Of a stretch of DNA of 64,000 nucleotides, positions 1,614 through 59,590 are shown one piece after another. The position numbers and the translations under genes are program-made. The DNA comes from Cryptosporangium arvum DSM 44712 (GTDB lineage: Bacteria; Actinomycetota; Actinomycetes; Mycobacteriales; Cryptosporangiaceae): NCBI RefSeq assembly GCF_000585375.1, contig NZ_KK073874.1, positions 4,216,001-4,280,000 on the forward strand, in the 5' to 3' direction. Position 1 is the first letter of the stretch; every line of letters starts with the position of its first letter. The notes beneath the pieces are model-generated. The model saw only the letters and a list, made by a program, of their open reading frames with translations, had not been told where the DNA came from and did not search any database.

Positions 1614-2300
1614 TCAGCGTGCGCGCTGGACCAGACGGTCGCGGTTGAGGAGCACGATCGAGCGACCGTCGAGCCGGATCCACCCGCGGGTCGCGAAGTG
1701 CGACAGCGCCTTGTTGACGGTCTCGCGCGAGGACCCGACCAGCTGGGCGAGCTCGTCCTGGGTCAGCTCGTGGTTGAGCCGGACCGCGTCGTCGGGGCCG
1801 GAGCGTTCGGGGAGGCCGAAGCGCTGCGCCAGGTCGAGCAGGGCCTTGGCCAGCCGCCCGGGCACGTCGGTGAAGATCAGGTCGGCCTGCTGATCGCCGG
1901 TGCGGCGTAACCGGCGCGCGAGCACCCGGAGCAGTTGCGGTCCGATCTCCGGGTGCTCGGCGATCCACGGCCGCAGCTGGTCGCGGCGCATCTGCGCGAC
2001 CCGGGCGTCGGCCACCACCACCGCGCTGGCCGTGCGGGGTCCCGGGTCGAACACCGCGAGCTCACCGAGCAGGTCGGACGGCCCGAGCACCGCCAGCAGG
2101 CTCTCTCGCCCGTCGGGGGCGCTCCGGTTGAGCTTGACCTTGCCTTCCAGCACCACGTAGAGCGAGTCGCCCGGGTCGCCCTCGGCGAAGATCACGTCCC
2201 GTTTGAAGAGGTCGAGGTACTTGAGGTTCGACGCCAGCGCCTCGGCGGCTCGCGGTTCGACGTTCTGGAAGAGCCCGCACCGGGCGAGTGCCGTGTCCAT
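1614..2300 (-). CDS. Crp/Fnr-family transcriptional regulator
   Basis: With the ATG at 2300 the protein is 228 residues. The N-terminal half is a cyclic-nucleotide-binding beta-roll (EGDPGDSLYVVLEGKVKL, then LGELAVFDPGPRTASA, matching the phosphate-binding cassette with Glu and Arg). The C-terminal winged helix contains LTQDELAQLVGSSRETVNKAL, the typical recognition region of actinobacterial Crp/GlxR proteins (LTQxELAxLVGxSRExVNK). The upstream frame extension to 2330 is disfavoured because the family starts close to 'ALARCGLFQ'. It diverges from the TetR gene at 2389. Probably a cAMP-responsive global or local regulator; the small-molecule ligand is inferred. Confidence 0.9.
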   Translation of the reverse strand: MDTALARCGLFQNVEPRAAEALASNLKYLDLFKRDVIFAEGDPGDSLYVVLEGKVKLNRSAPDGRESLLAVLGPSDLLGELAVFDPGPRTASAVVVADARVAQMRRDQLRPWIAEHPEIGPQLLRVLARRLRRTGDQQADLIFTDVPGRLAKALLDLAQRFGLPERSGPDDAVRLNHELTQDELAQLVGSSRETVNKALSHFATRGWIRLDGRSIVLLNRDRLVQRAR

Positions 2301-2334
2301 GACCGATCGCCTCCTGACGCTCAGTGTCAAATTT

Positions 2335-2349
2335 TGAGACTAAGTTTCA
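2335..2349. promoter_or_regulatory. Candidate TetR-type operator in the divergent Crp/TetR intergenic region
   Basis: The 15-bp sequence TGAGACTAAGTTTCA is an inverted repeat (seven-base arms, one central base, one mismatch) in an AT-rich patch between the divergent genes. The size and position suit an autoregulatory site for the TetR protein encoded at 2389. A second imperfect inverted repeat, GTCAAATTTTGAGAC, overlaps it on the left (2326-2340). Function is inferred from symmetry and position only. Confidence 0.45.
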
Positions 2350-2388
2350 GGCAGCAGAATGTCTACCGGTCCGAGGAAGGGACGATCG

Positions 2389-3057
2389 ATGGGCACAGGG
2401 CGGGACGCGATCGCCGAGGCGGCGTTCGGGTTGTTCGCGACCCGCGGCTACGAGGAGACCTCGGTCGAGGACATCGCGGCGGCGGCCGGCGTCAGCCGGA
2501 GCACGTTCTTCCGGGCCTACGGGTCGAAGGAAGCGGTGATCTTCCCCGACCACGACGAGCTCCTGCGCCGCGTCGAGGAGCGGCTGACCTCCACCACCGC
2601 CGACGCCGCGCTGAAAGCCGTGACCGAGGCGGTCAAGCTCGTGCTGTTCCACTACGTCGCCGAAGGCGAGCGGGCCCGCGAGCGCTACCGCCTGACCTCG
2701 GCCGTCGAGGCGCTGCGCGACCGGGAGCTGATCAGCGGCGCCCGGTACCAACGGCTGTTCCGCCGGTTCCTCGGGGACTGGGGCGACGGGTCCGAGGCCG
2801 CGGAGCTGCGCGCCGAGCTGACCTCGGCCGCCGTCGTCGCGGCCCACAACCACGTGCTGCGCCGCTGGCTGCGCGGGGAAAGCGTCGACCCGCACGCGGA
2901 GGTCGAGACCGCGCTGGCCGACGTCAGGGCGACCTTCGACCCGGCGTCGCGGCGCGAGCCGGTCGCGGTGCTCGTGGTCCCGACCGGCCTCGCGATGTCC
3001 GACGCCGAGTCCGCGATCCGGCGTGCCCTCGGCGGTGCGTCGAACGTGGACGGTTGA
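2389..3057 (+). CDS. TetR-family transcriptional regulator
   Basis: The N-terminal helix-turn-helix reads FATRGYEETSVEDIAAAAGV then SRSTFFRAYGSKEAVI, a textbook TetR domain. The remaining helical part binds an unknown ligand. The ATG at 2389 has AGGAAGG about seven bases upstream and is preferred over the in-frame ATG at 2359. Translated from 2389 it is 222 residues. The operator-like palindrome at 2335-2349 lies just upstream, suggesting autorepression and possibly control of the divergent Crp-type gene. No target enzyme gene is adjacent apart from the response regulator 26 bases downstream. Confidence 0.85.
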   Translation: MGTGRDAIAEAAFGLFATRGYEETSVEDIAAAAGVSRSTFFRAYGSKEAVIFPDHDELLRRVEERLTSTTADAALKAVTEAVKLVLFHYVAEGERARERYRLTSAVEALRDRELISGARYQRLFRRFLGDWGDGSEAAELRAELTSAAVVAAHNHVLRRWLRGESVDPHAEVETALADVRATFDPASRREPVAVLVVPTGLAMSDAESAIRRALGGASNVDG

Positions 3058-9308: not shown

Positions 9309-9574
9309 GATGTCATCCGATGCTCACGCCGATGGCCTGCGCGAACAGTACGACGTGTGCACCGGCGGACCGCCTCGGGACACGGCGTGGGACGAGTTTC
9401 CGGGGTCACGACCACTCGGCGGGCCCTCCGGCCGCTGAAGCCCCGGAGACACGCCGTAGGCCCGGAACGCCGCGCGGAGGCCCCCACGACCGCGTGCTTC
9501 TCGCCCCTCGCGGCCGCACTGGCGCGGGTACTGGATGCTGGCGGGGTTGTCGGTCCGATGCGGAGGGTGGGCGG

Positions 9575-12500
9575 ATGATCCTGCGGTGCCGCTGCCTGGG
9601 TTCGCTGGAGGTGCACGGCGGTGACCAGTGGCGTCCGGTCCGCGGCGCCAGGGCCCGGGCCCTGCTCGCCGTCCTGGTCCGGCACCGCGGTGAGCACGTC
9701 CCGGCCCGGCGGCTGGCCGACGAGGTCTGGGACGGCCGCCCGCCCGCGTCGGCGGGCACGCTGATCCGCGGGTACGTGTCCGCGCTGCGCCGGGCGTTCG
9801 GCGCCGACGGCGCGCGGGTCATCGTCGGCTCCGGCGGTGGCTACCGGCTCGACCTCCCGCCGGACGCGGTCGACGTCGACCTCTTCGACGCACTCTGCGC
9901 CCAGGGTGGGACCGCGCTGCGACGCGGTGACCCGGAGGGCGCCGCGCTGCTGCTCGCCGACGCGCTCGCCCTGCACCGGGGTCCGGCCTGCGCCGACGTT
10001 CCCCGCACGCGGACGCTCACCGCGTTCGCCGAGGGCGTCGAGGAGCGCCGGCTCGTCGCGGTCGAGGCGCGGATCGAGGCCGAGCTCGCGTGCTCCCGCC
10101 ACACCGAGGTGCTCGGCGAGCTGCGTCGCCTGGTGACCGAGCACCCGAACCGGGAGCGGCTGCTGGCGCAGTGGATGCGCGCGCTGCACGCGGCCGGCCG
10201 CCGGGCGGAGGCGCTCGACGTCTACCTGGCCGCCCACAAGCGCCTCGTCGAGCAGCGGGGCATCGACCCCGGGCCGGAGCTGCGCGCGGCGCACCGGACG
10301 ATCCTCGCGGCCGAGGACGCCCCCCGTCCGCAGGCCCGGCCCGGCCGCGGGGGAACCGGCTGGTCCCCGCCCTCGCAGGCCCCGGCCGGTATCGCCGACT
10401 TCACCGGCCGCGACGCCGAGCTGGCCCGCTGCCTGGCGGTGCTCACCGAGCCCGGGGCGCGGGCGCTGCGCGTGGTGGCGATCTCCGGGCGGGCCGGCGT
10501 CGGCAAGAGCGCGCTGGCCGTCACGCTCACCCACGGCCTGCGCGCGTGGTACCCGGACGGTCAGCTCTACGCGGACCTGACCGGGGAGACCCACCGCGCG
10601 GTGGAGCCGGCCGACGTGCTCGCGATGTTCCTGCGCGCGGTCGGGGTGCCGGGCTCCGCGGTGCCCGAGCGCACCGACGAGCGGGCCGCGCTCCTGCGCA
10701 GCATCGTCGCCGATCGCCGGGTGCTCGTCGTGCTGGAGAACGCACCCGACGAACGCCGGATCCGCGCGCTGCTGCCCGGCGGGGCCGGCTGCGCGGTGCT
10801 GGTCACCAGCCGGGGCCGCCTGTCCGCGCTGGAAGGCGCGCACTTCGTCGAGCTCGACGTGTTCACGCCGGAGGAGGCGCTGACCCTGCTGGAACGGGTG
10901 GTCGGCGCCGACCGGGTCCACGAGCGGATCGACGCCGCGCGGCGGCTGCTCGACCTGTGCGGCCGGCTCCCGCTGGCCGTGCGCATCATGGCGGCCCGGA
11001 TCGCCAGCGCCCCGCGGACGCCGCTGGAGTGGTTCGCCGAGCGGCTGGCCGACGAGCGGCGGCGGCTGGACGAGCTGCGCCTGCACGACCTCGACGTCCG
11101 CGCCGGTATCGGGGCCGGGTACGCGTTGCTGAGCAGCAGGCAGCGACGTGTCCTGCGGCGGCTGGCCGTCCTCGACGTCACCGCGTTCCCGGCCTGGGTG
11201 GTCGCGCTCGTCGCCGACGTCGACGAGCGCGCCGCCGACGAGGCGCTCGACGCACTGGTCGGCCACCGGCTCCTGGACGCGGCCGGTCCGGACGACGGCG
11301 GCCGGCCCCGGTACCGGTTCCACGGCCTGGTCCGGCTGTTCGCCCGCGAGCGGGCCGCGGCCGACCCCGACCTGGACCCGGCCGCGGTGCTGGAGTGCGC
11401 GGTACGGGGGTGGCGCGCGCTCGCCGAGCAGGCGACCACCCGGCTGCCGGCGCGCACGCTGGCCCCGATCCCGTCCCCGGCCCGGCCAGGGCCGGTCACC
11501 GACGAGGCGATCCGCGAGCCGTTCGCCTGGTTCGACGCCGAGCGCGAGTCGATCGCGGAACTCGTCGGGCAGAGCGTCGAGCTCGGCCGGGCCGACCTGG
11601 CGTGGCCGCTGGCCGCGGCCGCGCACCCCTACTACGAGCTGCGCGACTACTCCGAGGAGGGCAGCCGGGTCCACCGGTCGGCGCTGGACGCGTGCCGGGC
11701 CGCCGGGGACTCGCTGGGGGAGGCGGTGATGAGCCGCAACCTCGCCGATCTCTACATCTCGAAACCCGGGTCGGACATCAGCGAGAAGCTCGCTCACGCC
11801 GAGCGCGCGCTGGAGCTGTTCCGCGCGGCCGGGCACGCGCCGGGCGAGGCCGACGCCGGTTACCTCGCCGCCACCGTCCACCGCGTGCTCGGCGCGACCG
11901 ACCAGGTCGAGGCGTGCCTGGACGCGAGCCTGGCGGTGGCCGGCTCGGTCGGCTACCGCCTCGGCGAGGTCCACGTCTGGCAGCTGCGCGGCATCCTCCG
12001 GCGTCAGCAGGGACGGCAGGCCGACGCGATCGCGGCGGCCGGGCGGGCGCTCACGGTCGCCCGCGAGCTCGGCAGCTCCCGTGACGTGAGCGTCCTGCTC
12101 GGCCTGATCGGCCTGGCCCACCGTGACCGCGGCGAACCGGGGCCGGCCGAGGCGGCGCTGGCCGAGGCGGTGACGATCGCCGAGGAGACCGGCGACCCGG
12201 TCCAGCTCGCGTTCCTCTGCGCCCACCTCGGTGGTCTCTACGTCGAGTCCGGCGATCCCCGCGCGCAGCGGCTGCTCGACCGCGGCCTCGCGCTCAGCAC
12301 CGGCAGCCGGTCGGAGTTCGGCGAGGCGATGGCGCTCGACGGGTTGGGCCGGCTGGCGTTGCGTTCCGGTGCGCCCCGCCGGGCGGTCGCGCACTTCACC
12401 GACGCGGTCGCCCTGCACCGGCGGGCGGGCAACCTGCAGGCCGAGGCGAAGGCGCTCGCCGGGCTCGCGTCGGCCTGGCTGGGCGCCGGTGACCCGGTCG

Positions 12501-12625
12501 CGGCCCGCGACACCGGGCTGACCGCCCGGGCGCTCTTCCGGCGGCTCGGCAACGAGACCGAGGCCGGGCTGCTGTCCGTCGTGATCGGACCGCAGCCGCG
12601 TGCAGATTCAGTAGAGAACGCGTAA
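9575..12625 (+). CDS. AfsR/SARP-type regulator with NB-ARC and TPR domains
   Basis: A 1016-residue SARP. It has an N-terminal OmpR-like winged helix (LGSLEVHGG, ARALLAVLVRH, VWDGRPPASAGTLIRGYVSA), then a bacterial transcriptional activation domain to about 250 (ERLLAQWMRALHAAGR). An NB-ARC ATPase follows, with Walker A SGRAGVGKSALAV near 310 and GLPL-like CGRLPLAVRI. The C-terminal third consists of TPR-like repeats with alternating AL/AA helices. Members activate secondary-metabolite operons by binding direct repeats near the -35 box. ATG at 9575 follows GGAGGGTGG. It lies 99 bases upstream of the Cys-rich peptide gene on the same strand, so it is the obvious candidate activator of that operon. 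Confidence 0.9.
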   Translation: MILRCRCLGSLEVHGGDQWRPVRGARARALLAVLVRHRGEHVPARRLADEVWDGRPPASAGTLIRGYVSALRRAFGADGARVIVGSGGGYRLDLPPDAVDVDLFDALCAQGGTALRRGDPEGAALLLADALALHRGPACADVPRTRTLTAFAEGVEERRLVAVEARIEAELACSRHTEVLGELRRLVTEHPNRERLLAQWMRALHAAGRRAEALDVYLAAHKRLVEQRGIDPGPELRAAHRTILAAEDAPRPQARPGRGGTGWSPPSQAPAGIADFTGRDAELARCLAVLTEPGARALRVVAISGRAGVGKSALAVTLTHGLRAWYPDGQLYADLTGETHRAVEPADVLAMFLRAVGVPGSAVPERTDERAALLRSIVADRRVLVVLENAPDERRIRALLPGGAGCAVLVTSRGRLSALEGAHFVELDVFTPEEALTLLERVVGADRVHERIDAARRLLDLCGRLPLAVRIMAARIASAPRTPLEWFAERLADERRRLDELRLHDLDVRAGIGAGYALLSSRQRRVLRRLAVLDVTAFPAWVVALVADVDERAADEALDALVGHRLLDAAGPDDGGRPRYRFHGLVRLFARERAAADPDLDPAAVLECAVRGWRALAEQATTRLPARTLAPIPSPARPGPVTDEAIREPFAWFDAERESIAELVGQSVELGRADLAWPLAAAAHPYYELRDYSEEGSRVHRSALDACRAAGDSLGEAVMSRNLADLYISKPGSDISEKLAHAERALELFRAAGHAPGEADAGYLAATVHRVLGATDQVEACLDASLAVAGSVGYRLGEVHVWQLRGILRRQQGRQADAIAAAGRALTVARELGSSRDVSVLLGLIGLAHRDRGEPGPAEAALAEAVTIAEETGDPVQLAFLCAHLGGLYVESGDPRAQRLLDRGLALSTGSRSEFGEAMALDGLGRLALRSGAPRRAVAHFTDAVALHRRAGNLQAEAKALAGLASAWLGAGDPVAARDTGLTARALFRRLGNETEAGLLSVVIGPQPRADSVENA

Positions 12626-12684: not shown

Positions 12685-12724
12685 CGAGCCACCGCAGGCA
12701 CCGACGATCAAGGGGAGTGCACAC

Positions 12725-12898
12725 ATGACCCGTCTGGCCGATCGATTACTGTCCCTCATCGCGCCGTCGACCACCGCGTCGGCGGCGATGCAGACCCAGT
12801 GTTTCTCCTGCTCCACCACCCGCGCCAAGCTGTGCCGGCGGGACTGCATCCAGGGCGTGTGTGAGCCGTGGGGCTGCGGGAGCTGCGGCAGCTGCTGA
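12725..12898 (+). CDS. Cys-rich small peptide, proposed precursor of a disulfide-rich secreted (RiPP-like) peptide
   Basis: A 57-residue ORF with ATG at 12725 and an excellent ribosome site (AAGGGGAG, spacing seven). The N-terminal 20 residues form a leader with a short amphipathic helix (LADRLLSLIAP) ending TTASA, an A-x-A type signal peptidase site. The remainder carries eight cysteines, at 26, 29, 37, 41, 46, 51, 54 and 57, with a Gly-rich end (CGSCGSC). Cleavage after Ala20 would leave a core of 37 residues able to form four disulfides. It is immediately followed by redox, export and peptidase genes, which is typical precursor placement. It could alternatively bind metal through its CxxC pairs. 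I do not recognise a named family. Confidence 0.8.
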   Translation: MTRLADRLLSLIAPSTTASAAMQTQCFSCSTTRAKLCRRDCIQGVCEPWGCGSCGSC

Positions 12899-12905
12899 CG
12901 TGATC

Positions 12906-12938
12906 GGCCCGCCCACCGCGGTCCGCGGTGGGCGGGCC
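12906..12938 (+). terminator. Strong hairpin between peptide gene and MauE-like gene
   Basis: A perfect inverted repeat with 16-base arms (GGCCCGCCCACCGCGG and its complement) around one central base begins eight bases after the peptide stop codon. There is no U-tract, which is common for actinobacterial terminators. In the RNA it would act as a partial terminator or 3' stabiliser, giving far more peptide mRNA than transcript for the downstream maturation genes. Confidence 0.75.
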
Positions 12939-12967
12939 GCCCGTTCCGGAACGCGAAAGGCCCGGCC

Positions 12968-13513
12968 GTGCGCTATCTCGTCCTCGTCGCCGCGGCGACG
13001 CTCTGGGTGGTCTTCGCCGTCTCCGCCGTGAGCAAACTGCGCGGCCGGGCGGCCTACGCGGCGTTCGTGGCCTCCACCGGCCGCCTGCTGCCGTCCCGGT
13101 TCGGGGCGGCCCGCCCCGTGGCGCTCCTCGTGCTCGCCGCCGAGCTCGCCGTCGTCGGCACGCTCCCGGTCGTGCCGGTGGCCGGCCTGGGCGTCGGCGC
13201 GGTGCTGCTCGGCGCGTTCGGCGTCGCGATCCTCGCCGCGACGCGCCGCGGGGTGACCGCGCCGTGCCGGTGCTTCGGCGCCTCGGCCCGCCCGTTGGGC
13301 GCCGCGCAGGCCGTCCGCAACGGTCTGCTCGCCGTGCTCGCGGCCGGTGGGGCCGCCGCGGCGGTCGCGGTGGGTGACCCCCTGGCCGGGGCGCACCCGG
13401 CCGGCGTGGCGATCGCCCTCTTCGGCGCGCTGGTGCTCGCCGTCCTCACGATCTCCTTCGACGACGTCGCCGACCTCCTCACGACCGGCTCCGTAGCAGT
13501 GGATAGGACCTGA
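12968..13513 (+). CDS. MauE/DoxX-family redox-associated membrane protein
   Basis: A 181-residue, mostly hydrophobic protein with about four to five membrane helices. It carries the PCRCFGA motif (Cys100 and Cys102) that marks MauE-like proteins. MauE is known from methylamine dehydrogenase biogenesis, where it is needed with MauD for the disulfide-rich small subunit, so a role moving thiol electrons across the membrane is a reasonable inference. No methylamine dehydrogenase genes are here. GTG at 12968 follows GAAAGG. The gene is separated from the next by only one base and lies between the Cys-rich peptide and a thioredoxin-fold protein. Confidence 0.85.
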   Translation: MRYLVLVAAATLWVVFAVSAVSKLRGRAAYAAFVASTGRLLPSRFGAARPVALLVLAAELAVVGTLPVVPVAGLGVGAVLLGAFGVAILAATRRGVTAPCRCFGASARPLGAAQAVRNGLLAVLAAGGAAAAVAVGDPLAGAHPAGVAIALFGALVLAVLTISFDDVADLLTTGSVAVDRT

Positions 13514-13514
13514 C

Positions 13515-14060
13515 ATGCCGTATCTCGTCGTCGCCGTCGTCGCCGTCGGCCTCCTGGGCCTGGTCAACCTGATGCTGTTGACCGCGGTGCTCAAACGACT
13601 GCGGGCGCAGCCGGCCGAGGGCCACCGCAGCGCGTTCGAGCAGCCGATGCCGCCGGTCGGGACCGTCGTCGACGACTTCGCGGTGGCCGACGTCGACGGC
13701 GGCACCTGGTCCAAGGACTCGCTCACCGGTGACACGCTCGTAGGCTTCTTCAGCCCCGGCTGCCCGGCCTGCGAGGACCTGCTGCCGGAGTTCGTCGAGT
13801 ACGCGGCCGGTTTCCCCGGCGGCCCGGACCGGGTCGTCGCCGTGGTGGAGGCGATTCCCGACGACGCCGGGCGTTACGTGTCGCTGCTCGCGCCGGTGGC
13901 CCGGGTCGTCACCGACCCGCCGGGACGCACGGTCGTCGTCCCCGCGTTCGCGGCCCGCGCGTTCCCGGGCGTCGTGATCGTGGACGCCACCGGCCGGGTC
14001 ACGGTCAGCGGCGGGGACGTCACCGCGCTCCCGGCTCCGGCTCCCGCGCCGGCGCATTGA
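13515..14060 (+). CDS. TlpA/MauD-like membrane-anchored thioredoxin-fold protein
   Basis: A 181-residue protein with one N-terminal anchor helix (about 3-25), then a thioredoxin fold facing outside. The active site is FFSPGCPACEDLLPEF, with Cys83 and Cys86, and a later cis-Pro region (FPGVVIVDATGRV). MauD and TlpA proteins of this shape handle protein disulfides outside the membrane. With the MauE-like protein encoded directly upstream it would form a dithiol relay for the eight-cysteine peptide at 12725. The C-terminus is a short Ala-Pro tail. The stop overlaps the region where the ABC transporter begins. Confidence 0.88.
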   Translation: MPYLVVAVVAVGLLGLVNLMLLTAVLKRLRAQPAEGHRSAFEQPMPPVGTVVDDFAVADVDGGTWSKDSLTGDTLVGFFSPGCPACEDLLPEFVEYAAGFPGGPDRVVAVVEAIPDDAGRYVSLLAPVARVVTDPPGRTVVVPAFAARAFPGVVIVDATGRVTVSGGDVTALPAPAPAPAH

Positions 14061-14065
14061 CCGGC

Positions 14066-15874
14066 ATGCGGGCCGCGGCCGGGATGGCCGCGGGGATCGC
14101 CTGGCGGTCCGCGCGGCGCCCGGTCGTACTGCTGACGCTCGTCGCGCTGGTCGGCGCCGCGGCCCCGGTCGGCGCGGCCTGGGCCACCCGCGGCACGATC
14201 GACCGGGTCGCGACCTCCGCGCCGCTGGGCGAGCTGGTCGCGGTGGCCGTCGCGCTGGCGGTGGCCGGGATCGCGACCGCGACGCTGCCGCAGCTCGAGC
14301 AGTACCTGCAAGCCGAGGTGGCGCGGGCGACGAACCTGGCCGGCGCGGAGCGGCTGCACTCCGCCGTCGGCGGCTTCGTCGGCCTGGGCCGCTTCGAGGA
14401 CCCGCGCTTCCTCGACCGGCTCCAGCTGGCCGGTGAGGGGGAACGGGCCGCCGGCGCGATCGTGGGGAGCGGCCTGGCCTCGGCGCGGTCGCTGCTGGCC
14501 CTCGGGGGGTTCGTCGGGTCGCTGCTGGTGCTGAGCCCGGCCATGACGCTCGTCGTGCTGGTCGCGGCCGTCCCCACGCTCGTCGCGGAGTTCCGGCTCT
14601 CCCGCGCCCGGGCCGACATGACATTCGACATCAGCCCGGTCGAGCGGCGCGAGCTGTTCTACCGGAACCTGCTGACCAGCAGCGACGCGGCGAAGGAGAT
14701 CCGGCTCTTCGGCATCGCGGCGTTCCTGCGCACCCGGATGCTGACCGAGCGCCGCACCGCCGACGACGCCCGGCGCCGGATCGACCGCCGGGATCTGGTC
14801 ACCCAGGGCGGGCTGGCGCTGTTCGGCGCGCTCGTCGCGGGCGGCGGCCTGGTGTGGGCCGTACGCGCCGCGCGGCAGGGCACCCTGTCGATCGGGGACG
14901 TGTCGCTGTTCCTGCTGGCGATCGCCGGTGTGCAGGGCGCGCTGGCCGGAGCGATCAGCCAGCTGGCCCAGCTCCACCACCAGCTGCTGATGTTCGGTCA
15001 CTTCCGCGCCGTGGTGACCGCCGAGTCCGACCTGCCGGTCGCGCCGCACCCCACCCCGGTGCGGGCGCTGACCCGCGGGATCGAGCTGCGCGACGTCTGG
15101 TTCCGCTACGGCCCGGACGCGCCGTGGGCGCTGCGCGGCGTCACGCTGACGATCCCGCAGGGCCGGGCGACCGCGCTGGCCGGACGGAACGGGTCGGGCA
15201 AGAGCACGCTGATCAAGCTGCTCTGCCGGTTCTACGACCCGGACCGCGGCACGATCCGCTGGGACGGGGTCGACCTCCGTGAGCTCGACCCGGCCGCACT
15301 GCGGGAGCGGATCACCGCGGTGTTCCAGGACTTCGTGGAGTACGACCTCACCGCGGCCGAGAACATCGGCCTCGGCGACCTGGCCGGCCTGGCCGACGAG
15401 GGGCGGATCCGGGCGGCGGCCCGGCGCGCCGGCGTCGACGCGGAACTGGCCGGTCTGCCCGCCGGGTACCGCACGCTGCTCTCCCGGATGTTCTTCACCG
15501 AAGCCGACCGGGAGGACCCGTCGACCGGTGTCGTGCTCTCGGGCGGGCAGTGGCAGCGGGTCGCGGTGGCCCGCGCGTTCCTGCGTGACCGCCGTGACCT
15601 GATGATCCTCGACGAGCCGTCGGCCGGCCTCGACGCCGAGGCGGAGTACCGGATCCACGCCGGGCTGCGCGAACACCGGGCCGGCCGGACCAGCCTGCTG
15701 ATCTCGCACCGGATGGGCTCCCTCCGCGACGCCGACCGCATCCTCGTCCTCGACGGCGGCGAGCTGGCCGAAGAGGGCACGCACGCCCAGCTGCTCGCGG
15801 CCGACGGGGTCTACGCGCGGCTGTTCCGGCTGCAGGCCGCCGGGTACGCCGACGAGCCGGTGGCGGCACCGTGA
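14066..15874 (+). CDS. ABC transporter, fused membrane and ATPase domains (exporter type)
   Basis: About 602 residues from ATG 14066; a TTG at 14057 that overlaps the previous stop is a less likely start. The N-terminal 310 residues hold an exporter-type membrane domain (about six helices). The ATPase follows with Walker A AGRNGSGKSTLIK, Q-loop VFQDFVEYDLT, signature VVLSGGQWQRVAVARAF, Walker B LMILDEPSAGLD and switch SHRM. There is no N-terminal C39 peptidase domain, so leader removal must be done by another enzyme, presumably the S26 peptidase encoded next. It probably exports the Cys-rich peptide. Confidence 0.9.
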   Translation: MRAAAGMAAGIAWRSARRPVVLLTLVALVGAAAPVGAAWATRGTIDRVATSAPLGELVAVAVALAVAGIATATLPQLEQYLQAEVARATNLAGAERLHSAVGGFVGLGRFEDPRFLDRLQLAGEGERAAGAIVGSGLASARSLLALGGFVGSLLVLSPAMTLVVLVAAVPTLVAEFRLSRARADMTFDISPVERRELFYRNLLTSSDAAKEIRLFGIAAFLRTRMLTERRTADDARRRIDRRDLVTQGGLALFGALVAGGGLVWAVRAARQGTLSIGDVSLFLLAIAGVQGALAGAISQLAQLHHQLLMFGHFRAVVTAESDLPVAPHPTPVRALTRGIELRDVWFRYGPDAPWALRGVTLTIPQGRATALAGRNGSGKSTLIKLLCRFYDPDRGTIRWDGVDLRELDPAALRERITAVFQDFVEYDLTAAENIGLGDLAGLADEGRIRAAARRAGVDAELAGLPAGYRTLLSRMFFTEADREDPSTGVVLSGGQWQRVAVARAFLRDRRDLMILDEPSAGLDAEAEYRIHAGLREHRAGRTSLLISHRMGSLRDADRILVLDGGELAEEGTHAQLLAADGVYARLFRLQAAGYADEPVAAP

Positions 15875-16311
15875 CGATCGCCGCGGCGGTGCTGCTCGCC
15901 GTCGTGCTGCTGGTCGGTGCGGGGGTCGGCGTCGTCCGGCGGACGCTGGCGGTGGTGACGGTCAAGGGCGTCAGCATGGAGCCCACCTACCACCGGGGTG
16001 ACCGGTTGCTCGTGCGCCGGGCCGGCGTCGGCGGGCTGGAAGTCGGGCAGGTGATCGTGGTGGCCGCCGGCCGCCCGGTGGGGACGCCGCCGCTGGACAG
16101 CCCGCTGTGGATGGTCAAGCGGCTGGTCGCGCTCCCGGGCGACCCGGTGCCGCGCAGCGACACGTTCCACGTGCGCGCGGCGGCGGACGACGTCACGCCG
16201 CCGGGCTGCCTGGTGGTCGCGGCCGACAACCCCGACGGGGTCGACTCGCGCCAGCTCGGCTACTTCGCCGGCGAGAACCTGCTCGGCGTGGTCGTCCGCC
16301 ACCTGGCCTAG
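15871..16311 (+). CDS. S26-family signal peptidase
   Basis: A 146-residue type I signal peptidase-like protein. A single N-terminal membrane helix is followed by box B VKGVSMEPT with nucleophile Ser35 and box D WMVKRLVALPGD with general base Lys83; the late box AADNPDGVDSRQLGY matches the family's SxDSR region. The GTG start at 15871 overlaps the ABC transporter stop by four bases (GTGA), so the two are translationally coupled. It is shorter than housekeeping LepB and is placed as the last gene of the peptide operon. Cleavage of the peptide leader after the A-S-A at residues 18-20 is the inferred job. Confidence 0.9.
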   Translation: MTIAAAVLLAVVLLVGAGVGVVRRTLAVVTVKGVSMEPTYHRGDRLLVRRAGVGGLEVGQVIVVAAGRPVGTPPLDSPLWMVKRLVALPGDPVPRSDTFHVRAAADDVTPPGCLVVAADNPDGVDSRQLGYFAGENLLGVVVRHLA

Positions 16312-51538: not shown

Positions 51539-54500
51539 ATGGCTTCACCTGTCGCCGACCGCGTGTTCACTCTGGATCCGCGCCGGCGGTCGGCGCTGGC
51601 GGCGCTGCTCGGCGCCCGCACCGGGCCCGGCGCCATCCCGCGGCAGCCGCGCGACGGGCGGACGTTCCCGTGCACCCCCGCCCAGGTGCGCCTCTGGCTG
51701 GCCGACCAGCTGGACACCGGCGCGGTGGCGGTGCCCAACGCGACCGCCGGACTGCGGCTGCACGGCCCGCTGCGGGTCGAGGCCCTGCGCTCCGCGCTGG
51801 CCGAGGTGGCCGGTCGGCACGAGTCGATGCGGACGCGCTACGGCGTCTCGGCGGGCGTTCCGCACCAGATCGTCGCGGCCACGGCGCCGGCGCCGTTCGA
51901 CGTCGTCGACCTGACCGGGTCACCGGCCGACGCCCGTTCCGCGGCGGCCTCCGCGGTCACCGCCGAGGCCGCCGCCGAACGGTTCGACCTGGCCACCGGG
52001 CCGCTGTTCCGGCTGACGCTGTGCCGGCTGTCCGACCAGGACCACGTCCTCCTCTTCGCCGGCCACCACATCGCGTTCGACGAGCAGTCGGTCGACATCG
52101 TGCTGCGTGAGCTCGCGGCCGGGTACGCGGCACCGGCGGGAGGGGATCCGGGGGGCGAGCTGGACTATGTGGATTACGCCTGCTGGGTGGCCGGCCAGGA
52201 GGTGCCCGCGGCGGCCGACGAGTACTGGCGCGAGCGGCTGGCGCCTCCGCTGCCGGACCTGGACCTGCCGTTCCTCACGCCCGCGCGCCGCCGCTCCGCC
52301 GCTGCCGTCCCGGGTCCGGCCGAGCCCGGTGCCGCCGCCGGGACCGAGAGCGTGCGGGTGCGGTTGGCGGCCGGACGGCTGGATCGGCTGCGTGCGGTCA
52401 CCGGCAACCAGACGCCGTTCGTGACGCTGCTCGCGGTGCTCGACGTGCTGCTCGCGCGGTACACCGGGAGCGCCGACGTCACGGTGGGCACCGTCTCCGC
52501 CGGCCGCGCCCGGACCGAGCTGGAGCCGCTCGTCGGCTGTTTCCTCAACCCGCTGGTGCTGCGTACCGACCTCGCCGGGGCCGCGACGTTCACCGAGGTC
52601 GTGCACCGGGTCCGGGCCACGGTGGCCGAAGCCTTCGCCCGCGAGGTGCCGTTCGACCTCCTGGCCGGCCGGACCCCGCGCCGCCCCGGAATCCACCCGC
52701 TGTTCCAGGCCGCGCTGCACGTCCACCGGCACCGCGCCGACGAAGGCGCCTGGCCCGGCCTGACGACCGAGGTCTGGCACCACGAGGTCGGCGCGGACGC
52801 ACTGGACCTCACGGTCGAAGCGACCCCGCTACCCGACGGCACCACCGACCTGACGTTCCGGACCCCCCGCGGAGCCGCCGAGCCGGGCGCGATCGACCGC
52901 TTCGCGGAGGCGTTCCGCACGCTCGTCGACGCGGTGGGGGAGGCGCCCGACGCCCCGCTCGCCGACGCCGGCCGCGCTCCCCGGGCCGACCGCGAGGTGC
53001 TCCGCCGGTGGAACACCACCTCGCGCCCGGTTCCGTCGTCGACGGTCGCGGCGCTGATCGCCGAGCGCGTCACCCGGACCCCGGACGCCGTCGCGGTCGT
53101 CGGAGCCGGACTCACCTGGACCTACGCCGACCTCGGCCGCGAGGTGTCCGCGCTGGCCGCGCGACTCACCGCGGCCGGGTGCCGACGGGGCACGCTGGTA
53201 GCGGTGTGCCTGGAGAGGTCCCCGTGGCTGGTGGTCGCCACGCTGGCGGTGTGGCGGGCCGGGGGCGCCTACGTGCCGATCGACCCGGAGTACCCGCCGG
53301 ACCGTCAGGCCCTGGTCCTCTCCGACAGCCACGCCGCACTGGTCGTGACCCGGCGCGCACAGGACACCCACTTACCCCCCACCCCGGCGCCGATCATCCA
53401 CGTGGACGAACCCCGTCCCGCGCCGGTGGTGGAGGTGCCGGACGGGCCGGAGCCGGACGATCTCGCCTACGTTCTCTACACGTCCGGCTCGACCGGGCGC
53501 CCGAAAGGCGTGGCGGTCGAGCATCGGGCGCTGGGCAACCTGATCGCCGACTTCGGGCACCGCCTGGCCGCCGGCCCGGCCGACCGCTGGCTCGCGGTCA
53601 CCTCGCTGGCCTTCGACATCGCGGCGCTGGAGCTCTACCTGCCGCTGGTCACCGGTGCCCGGCTCGTGGTCGCCGACGAGGCCTCGGCCCGGGACGGCCG
53701 CGCGCTCGGCGACCTGATCCGCCGCGAAGGCGTCACCCATGTCCAGACCACCCCGTCGCGGTGGCGCCTCCTGCTCGCCGGCGGGTTCGGCCGGACCGAC
53801 CCGTCCACGGTGGACCGCGCCGCGAGCGTCGGGCCCGGCTCGGCCCGAGCGGTGACCGCACTCGTCGGCGGGGAGGCGTTGCCGCCGGGGCTCGCGCGGG
53901 ACCTGCGGGCGCGGACCGGGCGGCTGCTCAACGTGTACGGACCCACCGAGACCACGGTCTGGTCGTGCGCCTGGGAGGTGCCCGCCGACGTCGACGAGGT
54001 CGTGATCGGCACACCGCTGGCCAACACCCGGATCCAGCTGCGCGACCCGGACGGACACCTGGTGCCGGTCGGGGCACCGGGCGAGCTCTGGATCGGCGGG
54101 CTCGGCGTCGCCCGGGGCTACCTCGACCGCCCCGGTCTGACCGCGGACCGGTTCCGGCCCGACCCGGACGGCCCGCCCGGCGCGCGGCTCTACCGCACCG
54201 GTGACCTGGCCCGCTGGCGCGGCGACGGTCAGCTCGTGTTCCTCGGGCGTACCGACGACCAGGTGAAGCTCAACGGTCACCGGGTCGAGCTCGGCGAGAT
54301 CGAGAACCGGCTCGGCGGGGTCGAGGGGGTCGCCGCGGCCGCGGTCGCGGTCACCGGGGACGTGGCGGGGGAGCGGGCCCTGGTGGCCTACGTCGTGCCG
54401 GTGCCCGGCGCGTCGTGGGATCCCGGCCTCGTGCGTGCCGCGCTGGCCCGCGCGCTGCCCGACGCGATGGTGCCGCGCCGGTACGTCGCACTGGAGCAGT

Positions 54501-57500
54501 TGCCGTTGACGCCCAACGGCAAGCTCGACCGGGCCGCGCTGCCCGCCCCGGACCTCACCCCGGAGACCGCCGGGTACCGGCCTCCCGGCACGCCGTCCGA
54601 GCACGTGGTCGCGGCGGTGTTCGCCGAGGTGCTCGGGCACGACCGGGTCGGCGCCGACGACGACTTCCTCGCGCTCGGCGGCCACTCCCTGCTCGCGATG
54701 ACGATCGCCGCGCTGCTGTCGGAGCACTTCGGCCGCGAGGTCGGGGTCGCCTCGGTGTTCACCTGGCCGGTCGTCGCCGACCTCGCCCGGGAACTCGACC
54801 GGACCCACGCCGACCGCACCCGGGCCACGATGGCCCGCCGACCGATCGAACCGCGGCCCACCGGCTCCGGCCCGGCGCCGCTCTCGCTGGGCCAGCAGCC
54901 CCTGTGGTTCCTGCACCAGCTCGACCCGGCCGACGCCTCCTACAACATGCCGCTGGTCTACCGCTGCGCCGGGCCGATCGACCCGGACGCCCTCGACCGC
55001 GCGCTGACCCGCGTCGTCGCCCGCCACGAGGCGCTGCGGACCCGGTTCGGGCTGGTCGACGGCGAGCCCGCGCTGCTCGTGGATCCGCCGGCCGACGTCA
55101 CCGCCGAGCGGGTCGACCTCTCCGCCGCGCCGGATCCCGTCCTGGCCGCCCACGAACGGGTGGCCGGGTGGACGAACGCGCCGTTCGACCTGGAACGCGA
55201 CCGTCCGATCCGCGCGGGGCTGATCCGCCTCGGCCCCGACGACCACGTCTGGTGCCTGGTCGTGCACCACATCGGCGGCGACGGCCAGTCGCTGGCGCTG
55301 CTCGTCGAGGAGATCCGGCACGCCTACGACGGGGCCCCGCGCCCCGACTTCCCGGTGCGGTACTCGGACTTCGCGGCCTGGGAGCGCGCGGTGGTCCGCG
55401 ACGGCGAGGACGACGCGTTCGCGTACTGGCGCGACCGGCTCGCCGGGGTGCCCGTGCTGGACCTGCCGACCGACCGCCCGCGCCCGCCGCTACCCAGCAC
55501 CCGGGGAGCGTTCGTACGGCACCGGCTGCCGATCGAGCTCACCGAGGCGGTCGAGCGGCTCGCGGTGGCGCGGCGCAGCACGCTGTTCGTGGTGCTGCTC
55601 GCGGCGTACCAGGCCGTGCTCTCCCGGCTGAGCGGGCAGACCGATTTCTGCGTCGGCACCTCGGCGTCGGCCCGGGTGCGGCCGGAGATCGTGCCGCTGA
55701 TCGGGATGTTCACCGACACGCTCGCGCTGCGTGCCGACCTGAGCGGCGACCCCACGTTCGCCGACCTGCTGAGCCGCACCCGCCACACCGTCCTGGGCGC
55801 GTTCGGGCATCCGCGGATCCCGTTCGAGCGGCTCGCCGCCGCCTGGCACCTGCCCCGCGACGCCAGTTTCCACCCGTTCTTCCAGACCATGCTGATCGTG
55901 CACACCGAGGACGCGGCCGGCGTCGACGTGGTGCCCGGCGTCCGGGCCGAACCGTTCGACGACGGGGTCACCCAGGCGAAGTTCGACCTGATGGCGGAGT
56001 GCTGGCGGGACCCGGACGGCCTGGACGTGGCCCTCAACTACCGCACCGACCTGTTCGACGCCGCGACCATGACGGGCCTGGCCGAGCGGCTGGAGGCGCT
56101 GCTCCGGGCGGCGGTCGCGGCCCCGGACCGGCCGCTGTCCGGGGTGGAGCTGGTGTCCTCGGCGGAGCGGTCCCGGCTGCTGGCCCTCGGCCGCGGCGCA
56201 TCCGCGGACGACGACCCGGCCGACGTCGTGGCGCTGGTCGCCGAGCGGGTGCGCCTCGACCCGGACGCGGTCGCGATCGTCGACGGGGACGAGCAGCTCA
56301 CCTACGCGCAGCTGGCCGGCCGGGCGCGAGCGCTCGCGGCCCGGCTGCGTGCGCTCGGGGTCGGGCCCGAAGTGCCGGTCGCGGTGGCGCTGCCCCGCTC
56401 GGCGGAGCTGATCGTGGCGCTGCTGGGCGTGCTCGAGGCGGGCGGCGCGTACGTGCCGATCGACGTCGGCTACCCGCCCGCGCGGATCGAGTTCCTGCTG
56501 CGCGACAGCGGCGCGACCGTGCTGGTCACCGACTCACCCCACGACCACTTCCCACCCGTGGACCACCTCGTCCTCCCCGGCGACGTCCTCCCCGGCGACG
56601 TCCACCCCGGACGGGCCGAACCCACGTCGGCGGGGCCAGGCGCCCCCGCGTACGTCATCTACACCTCCGGCTCCACCGGAACGCCCAAGGGCGTCGTCGT
56701 CTCCCGCGGCGCCCTCGCGGCCCGGGTGGAGTGGATGCGCCGCCGCTACGCGCTCGGCCCGGCCGATCAGGTCGTCCAGTTCGCCTCGGTCAGCTTCGAC
56801 ACCCACGTCGAGGAGGTCTGGCCGGCGCTGACCGCCGGAGCCCGGCTGGTGCTCCTCCCGCCCGGCCAGGACCTCCCGGAGCTCCTCGACCACACCCCGG
56901 TCACCGTCCTCGACCTCCCCACCCCGTACTTCCACGAGCTGGTCCCCACCCTCGACCGGCTCCACCTCCCGGACTCGCTGCGGCTGCTGATCCTCGGCGC
57001 CGACCAGGTCCGGTCCGACGCGCTCGCGACCTGGCGTCACCGCGTCGGCGACCGCGTCGAGGTGCTGAACACCTACGGCCCCACCGAGGCCACGGTGATC
57101 GCCACCGCCGCCACCCTCGGCGGCCACGACACCGACGGCCGCCCGCCGATCGGCCGGCCGATCGACCGCACCCGCCTCTACGTCCTCGACGAGCACCTGA
57201 CCCCGGCCGGCTCCGGCGAGCTCTGGATCGCCGGAGCCGGCCTGGCCCGCGGCTACCTCGGCCGCCCCGGCCTCACCGCCGACCGCTTCCGCCCGGACCC
57301 GTTCGGCCCGGCCGGCACCCGGATGTACCGCACCGGCGACCGGGTGCGCTGGCGCGCCGACGGCCAGCTGGAGTTCCTCGGCCGGCTCGACGACCAGGTG
57401 AAGATCCGCGGCTACCGGGTGGAGCTCGGCGAGGTCGAGACCGCGCTCGCCGCGCAGCCGGGCGTCCGGCAGGCGGTCGTCGTACCCCGCACCGACGCCG

Positions 57501-59590
57501 CCGGCCACCGGACGCTCGCCGGCTACCTCGTCGGCGACGCGGACCCGGCGGACGTGCGTGCCGGGCTGGCCGCGCGGCTGCCGGCCTACCTGGTCCCGAC
57601 CCACCTGACCGCCGTCGACGAGATCCCGCTGACCGGCAACGGCAAGGTCGACCGGCGCGCGCTCCCGGCCCCGGACCCCCGCCAGGACACCGGCTACCTC
57701 GCCCCGCGCACCCCGACCGAGGAGCTGGTCGCCCAGGTATGGGCCGCGGTGCTCGGGCTGGACGCGGTCGGCATGCACGACGACTTCTTCGCGCTCGGCG
57801 GCCACTCGCTGCTGGCGACCGGCGCGGTCGCCCGGCTCTGCACGGTCGTCGACTGCGACCTGACCGTCCGGACGTTGTTCGGCGCGCCGACGGTCGCCGG
57901 TCTGGCCGCGGCGATCGACCGGCTGCGTACCCGGCCGGGCACCGCGGACCGGCCGGTCGTCGCCCGCCCGGCCGGGGCCGGTCCGGCGCCGCTCTCGCTG
58001 GGCCAGGAACGGCTGTGGTTCCTGCACCAGCTCGATCCGGACGACGCCTCCTACTCCATCCACCTCGCCTACCGCCTGCGCGGGCCGGTCGACCCCGCCC
58101 GGCTCGAGCACGCGCTCGGCGTGGTCGTGGACCGGCACGACGTGCTGCGGACCCGGTTCCCCGAGATCGACGGCGAACCGGTGCAGGATGTCGGGCCGGC
58201 CACCGGGGTGACGCTGCTGCGGGCCGGGGCCGCCGGGCCCGAGGAGGCCCGCACGCGGGTCGCCGAGTGGGTCAACACGCCGTTCGACCTGGAGACCGGG
58301 CCGCCGATCCGGGCCGGGCTGGTCCGGATCAGCGACGACGACCACGTCCTGGCCGTCGTGCTGCACCACATCGCCGGTGACGGCCGCTCGGCCGGGCTGC
58401 TCGCCGCCGAGCTGCGCCGGGCCTACGACGGCGCCGAGCTGCCCGCCCTCCCGGTTCAGTACGCGGACTTCGCGACCTGGCAGCGGGCGCGCACCGCCGG
58501 CGAGGAGCTCGGCTACTGGACCGAGCAGCTCGCCGGGGTGCCGCCGCTGGAGCTCCCGACCGACCGGCCGCGTCCACCGGTGCCCTCCTCGGCCGGCGAC
58601 TTCCTCGTGCACGACCTGCCCGAACCCGTCGTCCGCGCGGTGCGCCGGCTGGCCGCCGAGTCGTCGGCGACACCGTTCGTGGTGCTGCTCGCGGCCTACC
58701 AGGTGCTGCTGGGCCGGCTGACCGGCTCGCCGGACCTCTGCGTCGGCACGCCGATCGAGCACCGGCCCCGGGTCGAGGTGGCCGACCTGATCGGCTTCTT
58801 CGTCAACACGCTGGCCCTGCGCGCCGACCTGTCCGGCGCCCCGAGTTTCCGCGAGCTGGTGGCCCGCACCCGCGACACCGCGTTCGCCGCCTACGCCCGG
58901 CAGGACGTCCCGTTCGACCGGATCCTCGGTGCGCTCGACCTCCCGCGCGACGTCGGCCGCACCCCGCTGCTGGAGACGATGTTCACGCTCCACACCGAGG
59001 ACGCCGCCGGCACCGACGTGCTGCCCGGCGTCGACGCGGAGTTCTTCGACGCCGAGTTCCGGCAGGTCAAGTACGACCTGAGCCTCGACGCCTGGCGGAT
59101 GCCGGACGGTCTGCGGCTGGTCTTCGGGTACCGCACCGACCTGTTCTCGCGCGACACCGTCGGGGGGTGGGCGGAGCAGTTCGCGGCCCTGCTCGGCACG
59201 CTGCTGTCCGATCCGGACGGCCTGGTGTCCGGGGCGGAGCGGACCCGGCGGGCCGTCCGGGTGCCCCGCGGGCCGGTGCCCTACGTGGCGCCACGCACCG
59301 CCGCCGAGGAACTCGTCGCCGACGTCTGGGCCGAGCTGCTCGGGCTCGACCGGGTCGGGCTCTACGCGGACTTCTTCGCGTCCGGCGGCCACTCGCTGCT
59401 CGCGATGAAGATGCTGGCCCGGCTCCGGGCGGCGACGGGCACCCGGATCCCGCTGCGTGCGGTCTTCGCCCACCCGGTGCTGGAGCGGTTCGCCGCCGCG
59501 GTCGAGGAGGCGCTCCTGGCCGACCTGGCCGACCTTTCCGACGACGAGGCCGCCGCGTTGCTGGCCGCCGAGGAGGAACCCACGCCATGA
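51539..59590 (+). CDS. Non-ribosomal peptide synthetase, C-A-PCP-C-A-PCP-C-PCP
   Basis: A 2683-residue enzyme. C1 (about 45-470) has HHIAFDE at 176-182, with Glu in place of the last Gly of HHxxxDG. A1 (500-990) contains [11 protein letters not shown] and pocket residues D-I-L-Q-L-G-V-V-W-K, matching the Gly code. PCP1 has [10 protein letters not shown]2 (from about 1110) has HHIGGDG. A2 (1560-2040) gives D-T-E-D-I-G-T-V-I-K; two acidic pocket residues suggest a basic substrate. PCP2 has [10 protein letters not shown]3 (from 2150) has HHIAGDG and is followed directly by PCP3 (SGGHSLLAM, about 2610) with no adenylation domain. No epimerase or thioesterase. The ATGA at its end couples it to the second NRPS. 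Confidence 0.95.

Follow-up and report, generated by a model that had tools for sequence, protein, structure and literature searches.

A predicted disulfide-only peptide system with dedicated thioredoxin-like, leader peptidase, and export genes in Cryptosporangium arvum and other actinomycetes

Gene content of the operon and its precursor family

A window of 64,000 nt from Cryptosporangium arvum DSM 44712 (assembly GCF_000585375.1, contig NZ_KK073874.1, positions 4,216,001 to 4,280,000 of the forward strand) was analyzed, where a short cysteine-rich open reading frame (ORF) is followed by genes for a MauE-family membrane protein, a TlpA-like thioredoxin, an ABC exporter, and an S26-family peptidase. 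An earlier note had reported this gene set at 12725-16311 (+) as an undescribed disulfide-rich peptide system, and all five genes were located there when the ORF positions were rechecked. The product of the operon is very probably a small exported peptide, for which disulfides, four in this case, would be the only modification specific to the class. With comparable confidence, the system is predicted to resemble the ribosomally synthesized and post-translationally modified peptides (RiPPs), to be restricted to disulfides, and to have a redox protein, a leader peptidase, and an exporter of its own. The following features were identified, with positions counted from the first letter of the window:

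9575-12625 (+), AfsR/SARP-type regulator with Trans_reg_C, BTAD (4.2e-40), NB-ARC (4.1e-12), and TPR domains
12710-12717 (+), purine-rich ribosome site AAGGGGAG, 7 nt ahead of the precursor start
12725-12898 (+), precursor peptide gene, 57 amino acids, eight cysteines in the core
12725-12784 (+), leader MTRLADRLLSLIAPSTTASA, predicted to be cut after A-S-A by the site pattern of the precursor family
12785-12895 (+), core AMQTQCFSC...CGSC, 37 amino acids
12905-12939 (+), perfect 16-bp stem-loop in the gap between the precursor gene and mauE (z -3.7, dinucleotide shuffles)
12968-13513 (+), MauE-family membrane protein with five predicted transmembrane (TM) helices and an invariant C-x-C (PF07291, 2.7e-17)
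13515-14060 (+), TlpA/ResA-type thioredoxin with an N-terminal TM segment and CPAC (AhpC-TSA 2.4e-4, below the cut-off)
14057-15874 (+), ABC exporter, TMD-NBD (ABC_tran 1.8e-28), starting at TTG or at an ATG at 14066
15871-16311 (+), S26-family leader peptidase with Ser35/Lys83 and an N-terminal TM segment followed by RR (PF10502, 7.6e-16)

The last four genes overlap or abut (12968-16311). The SARP gene, whose start at 9575 was our choice within an ORF of 9320-12625, stops 99 bp 5' of the precursor gene, and its product is probably the regulator of the cluster. The peptide reads MTRLADRLLSLIAPSTTASA followed by AMQTQCFSCSTTRAKLCRRDCIQGVCEPWGCGSCGSC, with cysteines at residues 26, 29, 37, 41, 46, 51, 54, and 57; the 57-residue ORF, its ribosome site, the leader ending in A-S-A, and the eight cysteines in the stretch 26-57 were thus all present as the earlier note had described them. 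The predicted monoisotopic mass of the core, counted from A21, is 3974.64 in the reduced form and 3966.57 with four disulfides. The window peptide matched no NCBIfam or Pfam family above the cut-off, and the same was observed for two further sets of nine and ten precursors, apart from two weak chance matches. A chance ORF was rejected on the basis of homologues in the same genome, the specificity of the leader profile, and the ratio of nonsynonymous to synonymous substitution (dN/dS), which was 0.32/0.91, or about 0.36, against the Plantactinospora mayteni orthologue (57 codons).

The precursor pool comprised 115 sequences (seven from this genome, 26 from matches within the class, two from plasmids, and 80 from the named loci described below), 111 of which were distinct. 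Entry required at least three core cysteines, and parity was not a criterion. Leader and core were divided at P-x3-[AVI]-x-[AG] where possible, while eight of the 111 needed a fallback without the proline. A P-x3-[AV]-x-A site was found in 103 precursors, and under the split rule the last leader residue was alanine in all 111, with the third from last being alanine in 101 and valine in 10. The leader of about 20-24 residues follows the pattern ..[LM].[AGS]DR[LM]L..[LV]VP-x3-A-x-A, so that the A-S-A of the window, named as the leader end in the earlier note, is an instance of a conserved family feature. An Asp-Arg pair is frequent ahead of the proline; this segment does not look like a classical Sec signal, and the S26 enzyme of the cluster would be the obvious protease for the leader. 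Mean pairwise identity was 0.42 for leaders and 0.30 for cores, and across the family leaders are conserved and cores hypervariable. The 111 precursors therefore present the combination by which RiPPs are recognized, namely a ribosomal precursor with a conserved leader and a variable core. Cores were rich in cysteine (18.6%), glycine, tyrosine, and serine, with a mean net charge of +1.5. An exception to core hypervariability was a 10-cysteine core of the type CGNYPACWQC..CGYNAPCWACCNSNGCPTIVCQC, which was little changed among seven loci (L086, L095, L096, L111, L115, L123, and L150) from several species labelled Streptomyces and one Streptosporangium.

Cores contained 4 (two precursors), 6 (48), 7 (one), 8 (39), 10 (19), or 12 (two) cysteines, and none of the 111 leaders contained any. 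An even number was found in 110 of the 111 distinct precursors and in 58 of 59 clusters at 50% core identity (P ~1e-16), as well as in all 11 precursors found later outside this set (6, 8, or 10 cysteines). The tails of 1,242 cysteine-rich ORFs outside the family, taken from the same loci, showed a smooth fall from 4 to 10 cysteines with no parity effect (327 with five, 159 with six, 59 with seven, and 23 with eight). Since an even number points to disulfides, this distribution strongly, if indirectly, implies that the core cysteines are paired, in support of the disulfide-rich peptide that the earlier note had proposed. In two relatives from the same genome (L013b and L014a), exactly the equivalents of C37 and C51 of the window peptide were absent from the alignment, and this joint loss predicts that C37 and C51 are bonded to each other. 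The AlphaFold2 model of the peptide had two predicted strands and a mean pLDDT of 70.5 (82-85 in blocks of the core), and it matched no structure in the PDB under an E-value of 0.001; no bond pattern is therefore claimed from the model.

The stem-loop after the precursor gene had no U-tract terminator and is likely an attenuator or an element of processing or stability. A strong fold 3' of the precursor stop was found in 39 of 79 family cases versus 8 of 120 random stretches (z < -2, simple shuffles), as would fit an excess of precursor over enzyme message.

Recurrence of the gene set

The distribution of the system was examined in 80 named actinomycete loci, which were the best 80 of at least 556 exporter relatives and were picked by ABC alignment alone, with a leader profile built before its use on them. 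As 18 of the 80 stretches were shorter than 17 kb, some gene absences reflect contig ends. The profile found 79 ORFs in 74 loci, and reversed or codon-block-shuffled versions of the loci gave none; together with L107, where a changed leader was recognized by eye, a cysteine-rich precursor was present in 75 of the 80. Counted singly, TlpA was found in 76 loci, S26 in 72, MauE in 59, and a relative of the SARP regulator in 27. Precursor, MauE, TlpA, and S26 all occurred in 56 loci, while 14 contained precursor, TlpA, and S26 without MauE and the rest had smaller combinations. MauE was undetected in 21 of the 80 loci (seven of them on stretches shorter than 17 kb), which indicates that the MauE/TlpA pair is not obligatory. 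The loci span 22 genera and one metagenome-assembled genome (MAG), led by Streptomyces (28) and Nonomuraea (14), and all but one of the 22 named genera had precursors.

The five loci without a precursor were L081 (ABC only), L137, L144, L141 (a 3.4-kb contig), and L143. The last of these, from Centralia_MAG_342, encodes another kind of cysteine-rich ORF (2232-2501, minus strand), which ends in CAFGGDRACSSNCANRGYSGGYCNANNDCVCT, does not match the A-x-A leader, and lies near both a weak MauE match (2.4e-5) and an ABC exporter of the related kind. The cysteine spacing of CAFGGDRACSSNCANRGYSGGYCNANNDCVCT presumably resembles that of the CS-alpha-beta defensins of invertebrates.

Among 296 genomes of the class, a precursor profile matched 14, or 13 after removal of one false match whose frame reads like a P-type ATPase (G133). 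A TlpA profile gave 40 matches (E of at most 1e-20) in 16 of the same genomes, including all 13 with a precursor. A leader-bearing cysteine-rich ORF was found near 39 of the 40; these comprised 22 cases in loci of about 3.5 kb, the window, nine located by the coordinates of the precursor matches, six on stretches of 9.7-15 kb, and one beside L014, with two TlpA matches of one genome (G077) sharing a precursor. The exception was G293:C45 (L204). Of 20 stretches around precursor matches, all contained TlpA, 19 each contained S26 and MauE, and 18 had a close ABC relative. Gene order and strand varied between loci while the gene set was constant. A more diverse precursor profile searched across the phylum matched only 2 of 396 genomes, and because of this weakness the prevalence given here rests on the first precursor profile, the TlpA search, and the ABC search.

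Among proteins of 100 amino acids or longer, none besides these recurred near the exporter under more than 5 of the 23 genus labels in an all-against-all search covering about 4,200 of 5,044 queries (4,121 with matches; the distance filter was rough for loci starting at a contig end). A second modifying enzyme or an immunity gene of that size was thereby rejected within the same scope. Nine plasmid records matched TlpA over part of its length. For example, a Streptomyces atratus plasmid carries a cluster of SARP, a 73-residue ORF, MauE, a TlpA-like protein, ABC, and S26, and a plasmid of Streptomyces sp. NBC_00376 also carries the cluster; in an Embleya plasmid record, TlpA, ABC, and S26 were found in unannotated sequence, and MauE was not.

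Taken by gene content, the precursor, the TlpA-like thioredoxin, S26, and ABC recur as a set, to which about three quarters of the loci add MauE. The earlier note had suggested a search for conserved neighborhoods, and the cysteine-rich ORF proved to be the recurring partner in both selections (75 of 80 by ABC, 39 of 40 by TlpA). Loci lacking any such ORF, which the note had named as contrary evidence, were rare: one of the 40 TlpA matches, and two of the 80 loci (L137 and L144) in which MauE and TlpA were nevertheless present. Its pairing of MauE with TlpA was borne out for TlpA, while MauE was the less regular member.

The C. arvum genome (9.2 Mb, a single contig) encodes seven precursors at five loci including the window. 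The other six (two at L013, two at L014, one at L015, and one at L016) all lie within 3.91-4.36 Mb. TlpA, ABC, and S26 are near L013, L014, and L016, with two sets at L014; MauE was detected at L013 and L014 and not at L016. The signal peptidase profile identified nine S26 proteins in the genome, including six in precursor clusters, two adjacent classical LepB proteins, and one without an evident TM segment. A single-sequence precursor search of 60 other nearest-relative genomes, three of the same genus, yielded no convincing match and four weak ones (E 0.0016-0.009), and the family accordingly appears patchy in distribution.

Elsewhere in the window, a 2,683-residue nonribosomal peptide synthetase with three condensation, two adenylation, and three carrier stretches is encoded at 51539-59590 (+).

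Machinery, membrane sidedness, and alternative explanations

The MauE protein scored 63.7 bits against a PF07291 cut-off of 27, and the C-x-C reported in the earlier note is CRC, C100/C102. All 41 MauE members of the family alignment matched PF07291 (E up to 0.001), and two also matched Pfam DoxX. The AlphaFold2 model (pLDDT 92.8) has helices at 2-24, 27-40, 48-65, 70-93, 112-135, and 144-175, of which 27-40 is too short to span the membrane, and the C-x-C lies between helices 70-93 and 112-135. Foldseek gave no match under an E-value of 0.001 and a PDB sequence search gave none. When the top 298 Foldseek chains were realigned with VIA-align 2, the best was human NACHO/TMEM35A (9h9e_B; 117 residues aligned at rmsd 2.5 A and 11% identity, with Z 10.7 versus 6.4 for the runner-up), a likeness that is no more than suggestive for helical proteins, and a VKOR chain reached only Z 3.9. 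We take NACHO to be DoxX-like.

The second redox protein had been called TlpA/MauD-like: its CPAC (C83/C86) and TlpA likeness were upheld, and the MauD label was not, as it scored 13.6 bits against an NCBIfam cut-off of 188.6 and the MauD profile TIGR02661 matched nothing in the genome (E up to 0.001). The C-x-x-C was invariant in 22 of 22 aligned TlpA sequences; in the named loci, 76 of 77 TlpA rows had it and 59 of 60 MauE rows had the C-x-C, both exceptions being partial rows. Against solved structures, the TlpA profile best matched ResA and other thioredoxin-like proteins. The exporter had no C39 peptidase listed in its domain scan, in line with its description as lacking a peptidase domain. 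The S26 protein combines the Ser35/Lys83 dyad with a TIGR02227 score of 48.7 bits (cut-off 47), the profile and dyad of a type I signal peptidase. No LanB/C/M, radical SAM, or YcaO enzyme was found among the genes of the window cluster and the two annotated plasmid clusters, as the note had held for the former, and the same genes included no lasso cyclase or B protein. Likewise, no glycosyltransferase or C39-peptidase ABC transporter was among the window cluster genes.

Membrane sidedness was predicted from distinct sequences with a clear TM segment (66 from 105 TlpA rows, 26 from 97 S26 rows). For TlpA, mean counts of lysine plus arginine were 0.11 before the TM segment and 2.38 over the 12 residues that follow; of the 66 sequences, 57 had the excess after the segment, none had it before, and nine were tied. 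For the cluster S26, the excess was after the segment in 20 of 26, before it in three, and tied in three, as read by the positive-inside rule only. In 41 MauE proteins, the loops on the C-x-C side had 3.95 and 2.83 lysines plus arginines versus 0.15 and 0.12 in the opposite loops. By the positive-inside rule, these charges place TlpA, the MauE C-x-C, and S26 in the cytosol, which conflicts with the oxidation outside the membrane that the earlier note had assumed. We hold a cytosolic orientation of these three active sites tentatively, at a little under an even chance.

On the proposed mechanism, the precursor would be made in excess, with the stem-loop after its gene, and the membrane machinery would bind it through the leader. 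The membrane-anchored TlpA-like protein would pair and proof-read the cysteines of the precursor, and its own redox state would be restored either by MauE or by a housekeeping partner; the cluster S26 enzyme would cut after A-x-A, and the ABC protein would export the product. Oxidation and cutting may precede export, although this order is advanced with reserve. A full scheme of a RiPP class oxidized at the cytosolic face, in which an inward TlpA passes electrons to the MauE C-x-C and on to the membrane, an inward S26 cuts, and the peptide is exported already folded, with two to six disulfides, is considered unlikely as a whole.

The charge counts run against one rival, the view of the earlier note, in which a reduced precursor is exported and TlpA, MauE, and S26 then act outside the membrane. 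Classical S26 and TlpA enzymes do act outside the membrane, and within this genome two LepB proteins (L212 and L213) and one DsbA-like protein (L192) show the normal N-in/C-out pattern, the other DsbA-like protein (L193) being excluded because its start was ambiguous. The view keeps a substantial probability while falling short of even. It is also favored by the MauE C-terminus, which lies on the C-x-C side and is not net positive (1.24 lysine plus arginine, 1.83 aspartate plus glutamate). A rival of another kind assigns TlpA and MauE a reducing or isomerizing role: TlpA, kept reduced via MauE, would undo wrong disulfides or keep the precursor in its reduced form up to export, with bond formation taking place outside, either spontaneously or through a DsbA-like protein. 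The ResA likeness, the predicted cytosolic TlpA domain and C-x-C loop, the two general DsbA-like proteins of the genome, and the reported dispensability of a lasso-peptide redox pair (PMC9266682) all fit this, and we regard it as a genuine but rather doubtful possibility. The near-universal linkage of TlpA with a cysteine-rich precursor implies a real need for the protein, and VKOR (PF07884), which could recycle a general oxidase, had no match in the genome with a single profile that matched its control in Corynebacterium glutamicum, a weak test.

Two further rivals fared poorly. A metallothionein-like or metallophore peptide, whose cysteines would bind metal and be kept reduced by the redox pair, would account for the cysteine content of the cores. 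Metal binding does not, however, need even parity, cysteine positions vary from one core cluster to the next behind a conserved leader, and export and leader-cleavage genes accompany the precursor with no further protein recurring in the search above; it was rejected by parity and hypervariability and is very improbable. MauE and MauD mature methylamine dehydrogenase, and the redox genes could by analogy serve another protein, as the PF07291 match would allow. This is at least as improbable, since TlpA falls far below the MauD cut-off and the recurring neighbor is the cysteine-rich precursor; methylamine dehydrogenase maturation was rejected by the MauD score and the lack of a MauD match in the genome. 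The methylamine dehydrogenase light chain was also not found in the genome, a weak result as its control matched nowhere.

Several points weigh against the proposed system. Its product, bonds, and activity are all predicted. One precursor of the 111, from Virgisporangium ochraceum (L126:7231-7443, plus strand), has an odd number of cysteines, seven. MauE, TlpA, and ABC occur without a detectable precursor at L137, L144, and L204, and a precursor and ABC occur at L142 with TlpA, MauE, and S26 undetected. ResA-type proteins, among the nearest solved relatives of TlpA, are often reductants. Within the C. arvum genome, L015 (7159-7822, minus strand) has an intact precursor, ABC (69% identical to that of the window), and S26, together with a mauE that is a C-terminal remnant without the C-x-C and a TlpA gene without the C-x-x-C stretch. 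This cluster is either in decay or supplied in trans, and it offers a natural test of whether the redox genes of the window act in trans. The main caution against naming TlpA and MauE an oxidase comes, by analogy, from the SviE/SviF pair of class I lasso peptides, where deletion of sviF is reported to have left disulfide formation intact and single deletions of mslE and mslF to have cut the yield, with no free-thiol intermediates in the experiments described (PMC9266682). As DoxX and thioredoxin proteins are reported to be dispensable for disulfides there, TlpA and MauE may serve folding, reduction, or export.

Relation to known systems and implications

Among literature searched by titles and abstract openings, with subscription papers and bioRxiv mostly outside, only decRiPPter resembled a report of this system. 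That study from 2020 listed three Streptomyces candidate families with mauE, one of them with mauD, whose precursors have at least eight cysteines; it names Streptomyces sp. 2112.3, S. viridosporus T7A, and Streptomyces sp. CS081A, and its authors already inferred a role of mauE on the precursor (PMC7794033). The window shows the same combination (MauE at 2.7e-17, eight cysteines), and its family is likely that of the decRiPPter mauE clusters, as compared by the published text. Given this prior listing, the word undescribed in the earlier note was too strong. The decRiPPter families differ in being in silico candidates, with no evident leader or parity analysis and no occurrence of the term S26 in the main text (PMC7794033). 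What appears to be new here, at the level of sequence, is the defining leader, the parity argument, the gene set with MauE optional, and the prediction of sidedness, for a class glimpsed earlier in silico.

Other RiPPs share parts of this arrangement. The class I lasso peptides sviceucin, MS-271, and aborycin of Streptomyces have a DoxX-family SviE and a thioredoxin/DsbA-like SviF beside a cysteine-containing precursor and ABC transporter genes (PMC9266682, PMC6409603). Their isopeptide ring is made by a cyclase and B1/B2 proteins, none of which was found in the window cluster, whereas in the family described here the cores have 4-12 cysteines and the clusters include S26 together with an exporter of TMD-NBD type. 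Glycocins similarly combine cluster-encoded thiol-disulfide oxidoreductases and an ABC exporter with a disulfide-bonded peptide (PMC9266682), while the window cluster is without a glycosyltransferase or C39 peptidase and has an A-x-A leader end and a separate S26. In TMcins, a disulfide is formed by a cluster-encoded thioredoxin-fold enzyme, and leader removal and ABC export take place at the membrane; they differ in their single disulfide, the transmembrane helix of the product, a DUF3267 S2P-type protease, a separate ABC permease and ATPase, and a model from Staphylococcus aureus (PMC13252029). The mau cluster also places a MauE-family membrane protein next to a membrane-anchored C-x-x-C thioredoxin-fold protein (PMC7794033). 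In contrast, the window cluster has no MauD-level match, and it has a predicted peptide substrate with S26 and ABC in place of the dehydrogenase.

Disulfide bonds have been called rare among RiPPs (PMC9266682). The family is little studied and nevertheless large: its 111 distinct precursors fall into 59 core clusters, some genomes encode several of them, and some are borne on plasmids. It provides a search rule, namely the leader, A-x-A, and an even number of cysteines adjoining TlpA, S26, and ABC genes. Judging by the hypervariable cores, the paralogues, carriage on plasmids, and the SARP regulators, the peptides probably act in antagonism or signalling between bacteria, and the family could be a source of protease-stable scaffolds and new bioactive peptides. 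The findings also raise the question of whether oxidation of disulfide-rich peptides at the cytosolic face before export is a job of MauE/MauD-type pairs. If so, the hypervariable cores would be a natural combinatorial library of disulfide scaffolds.

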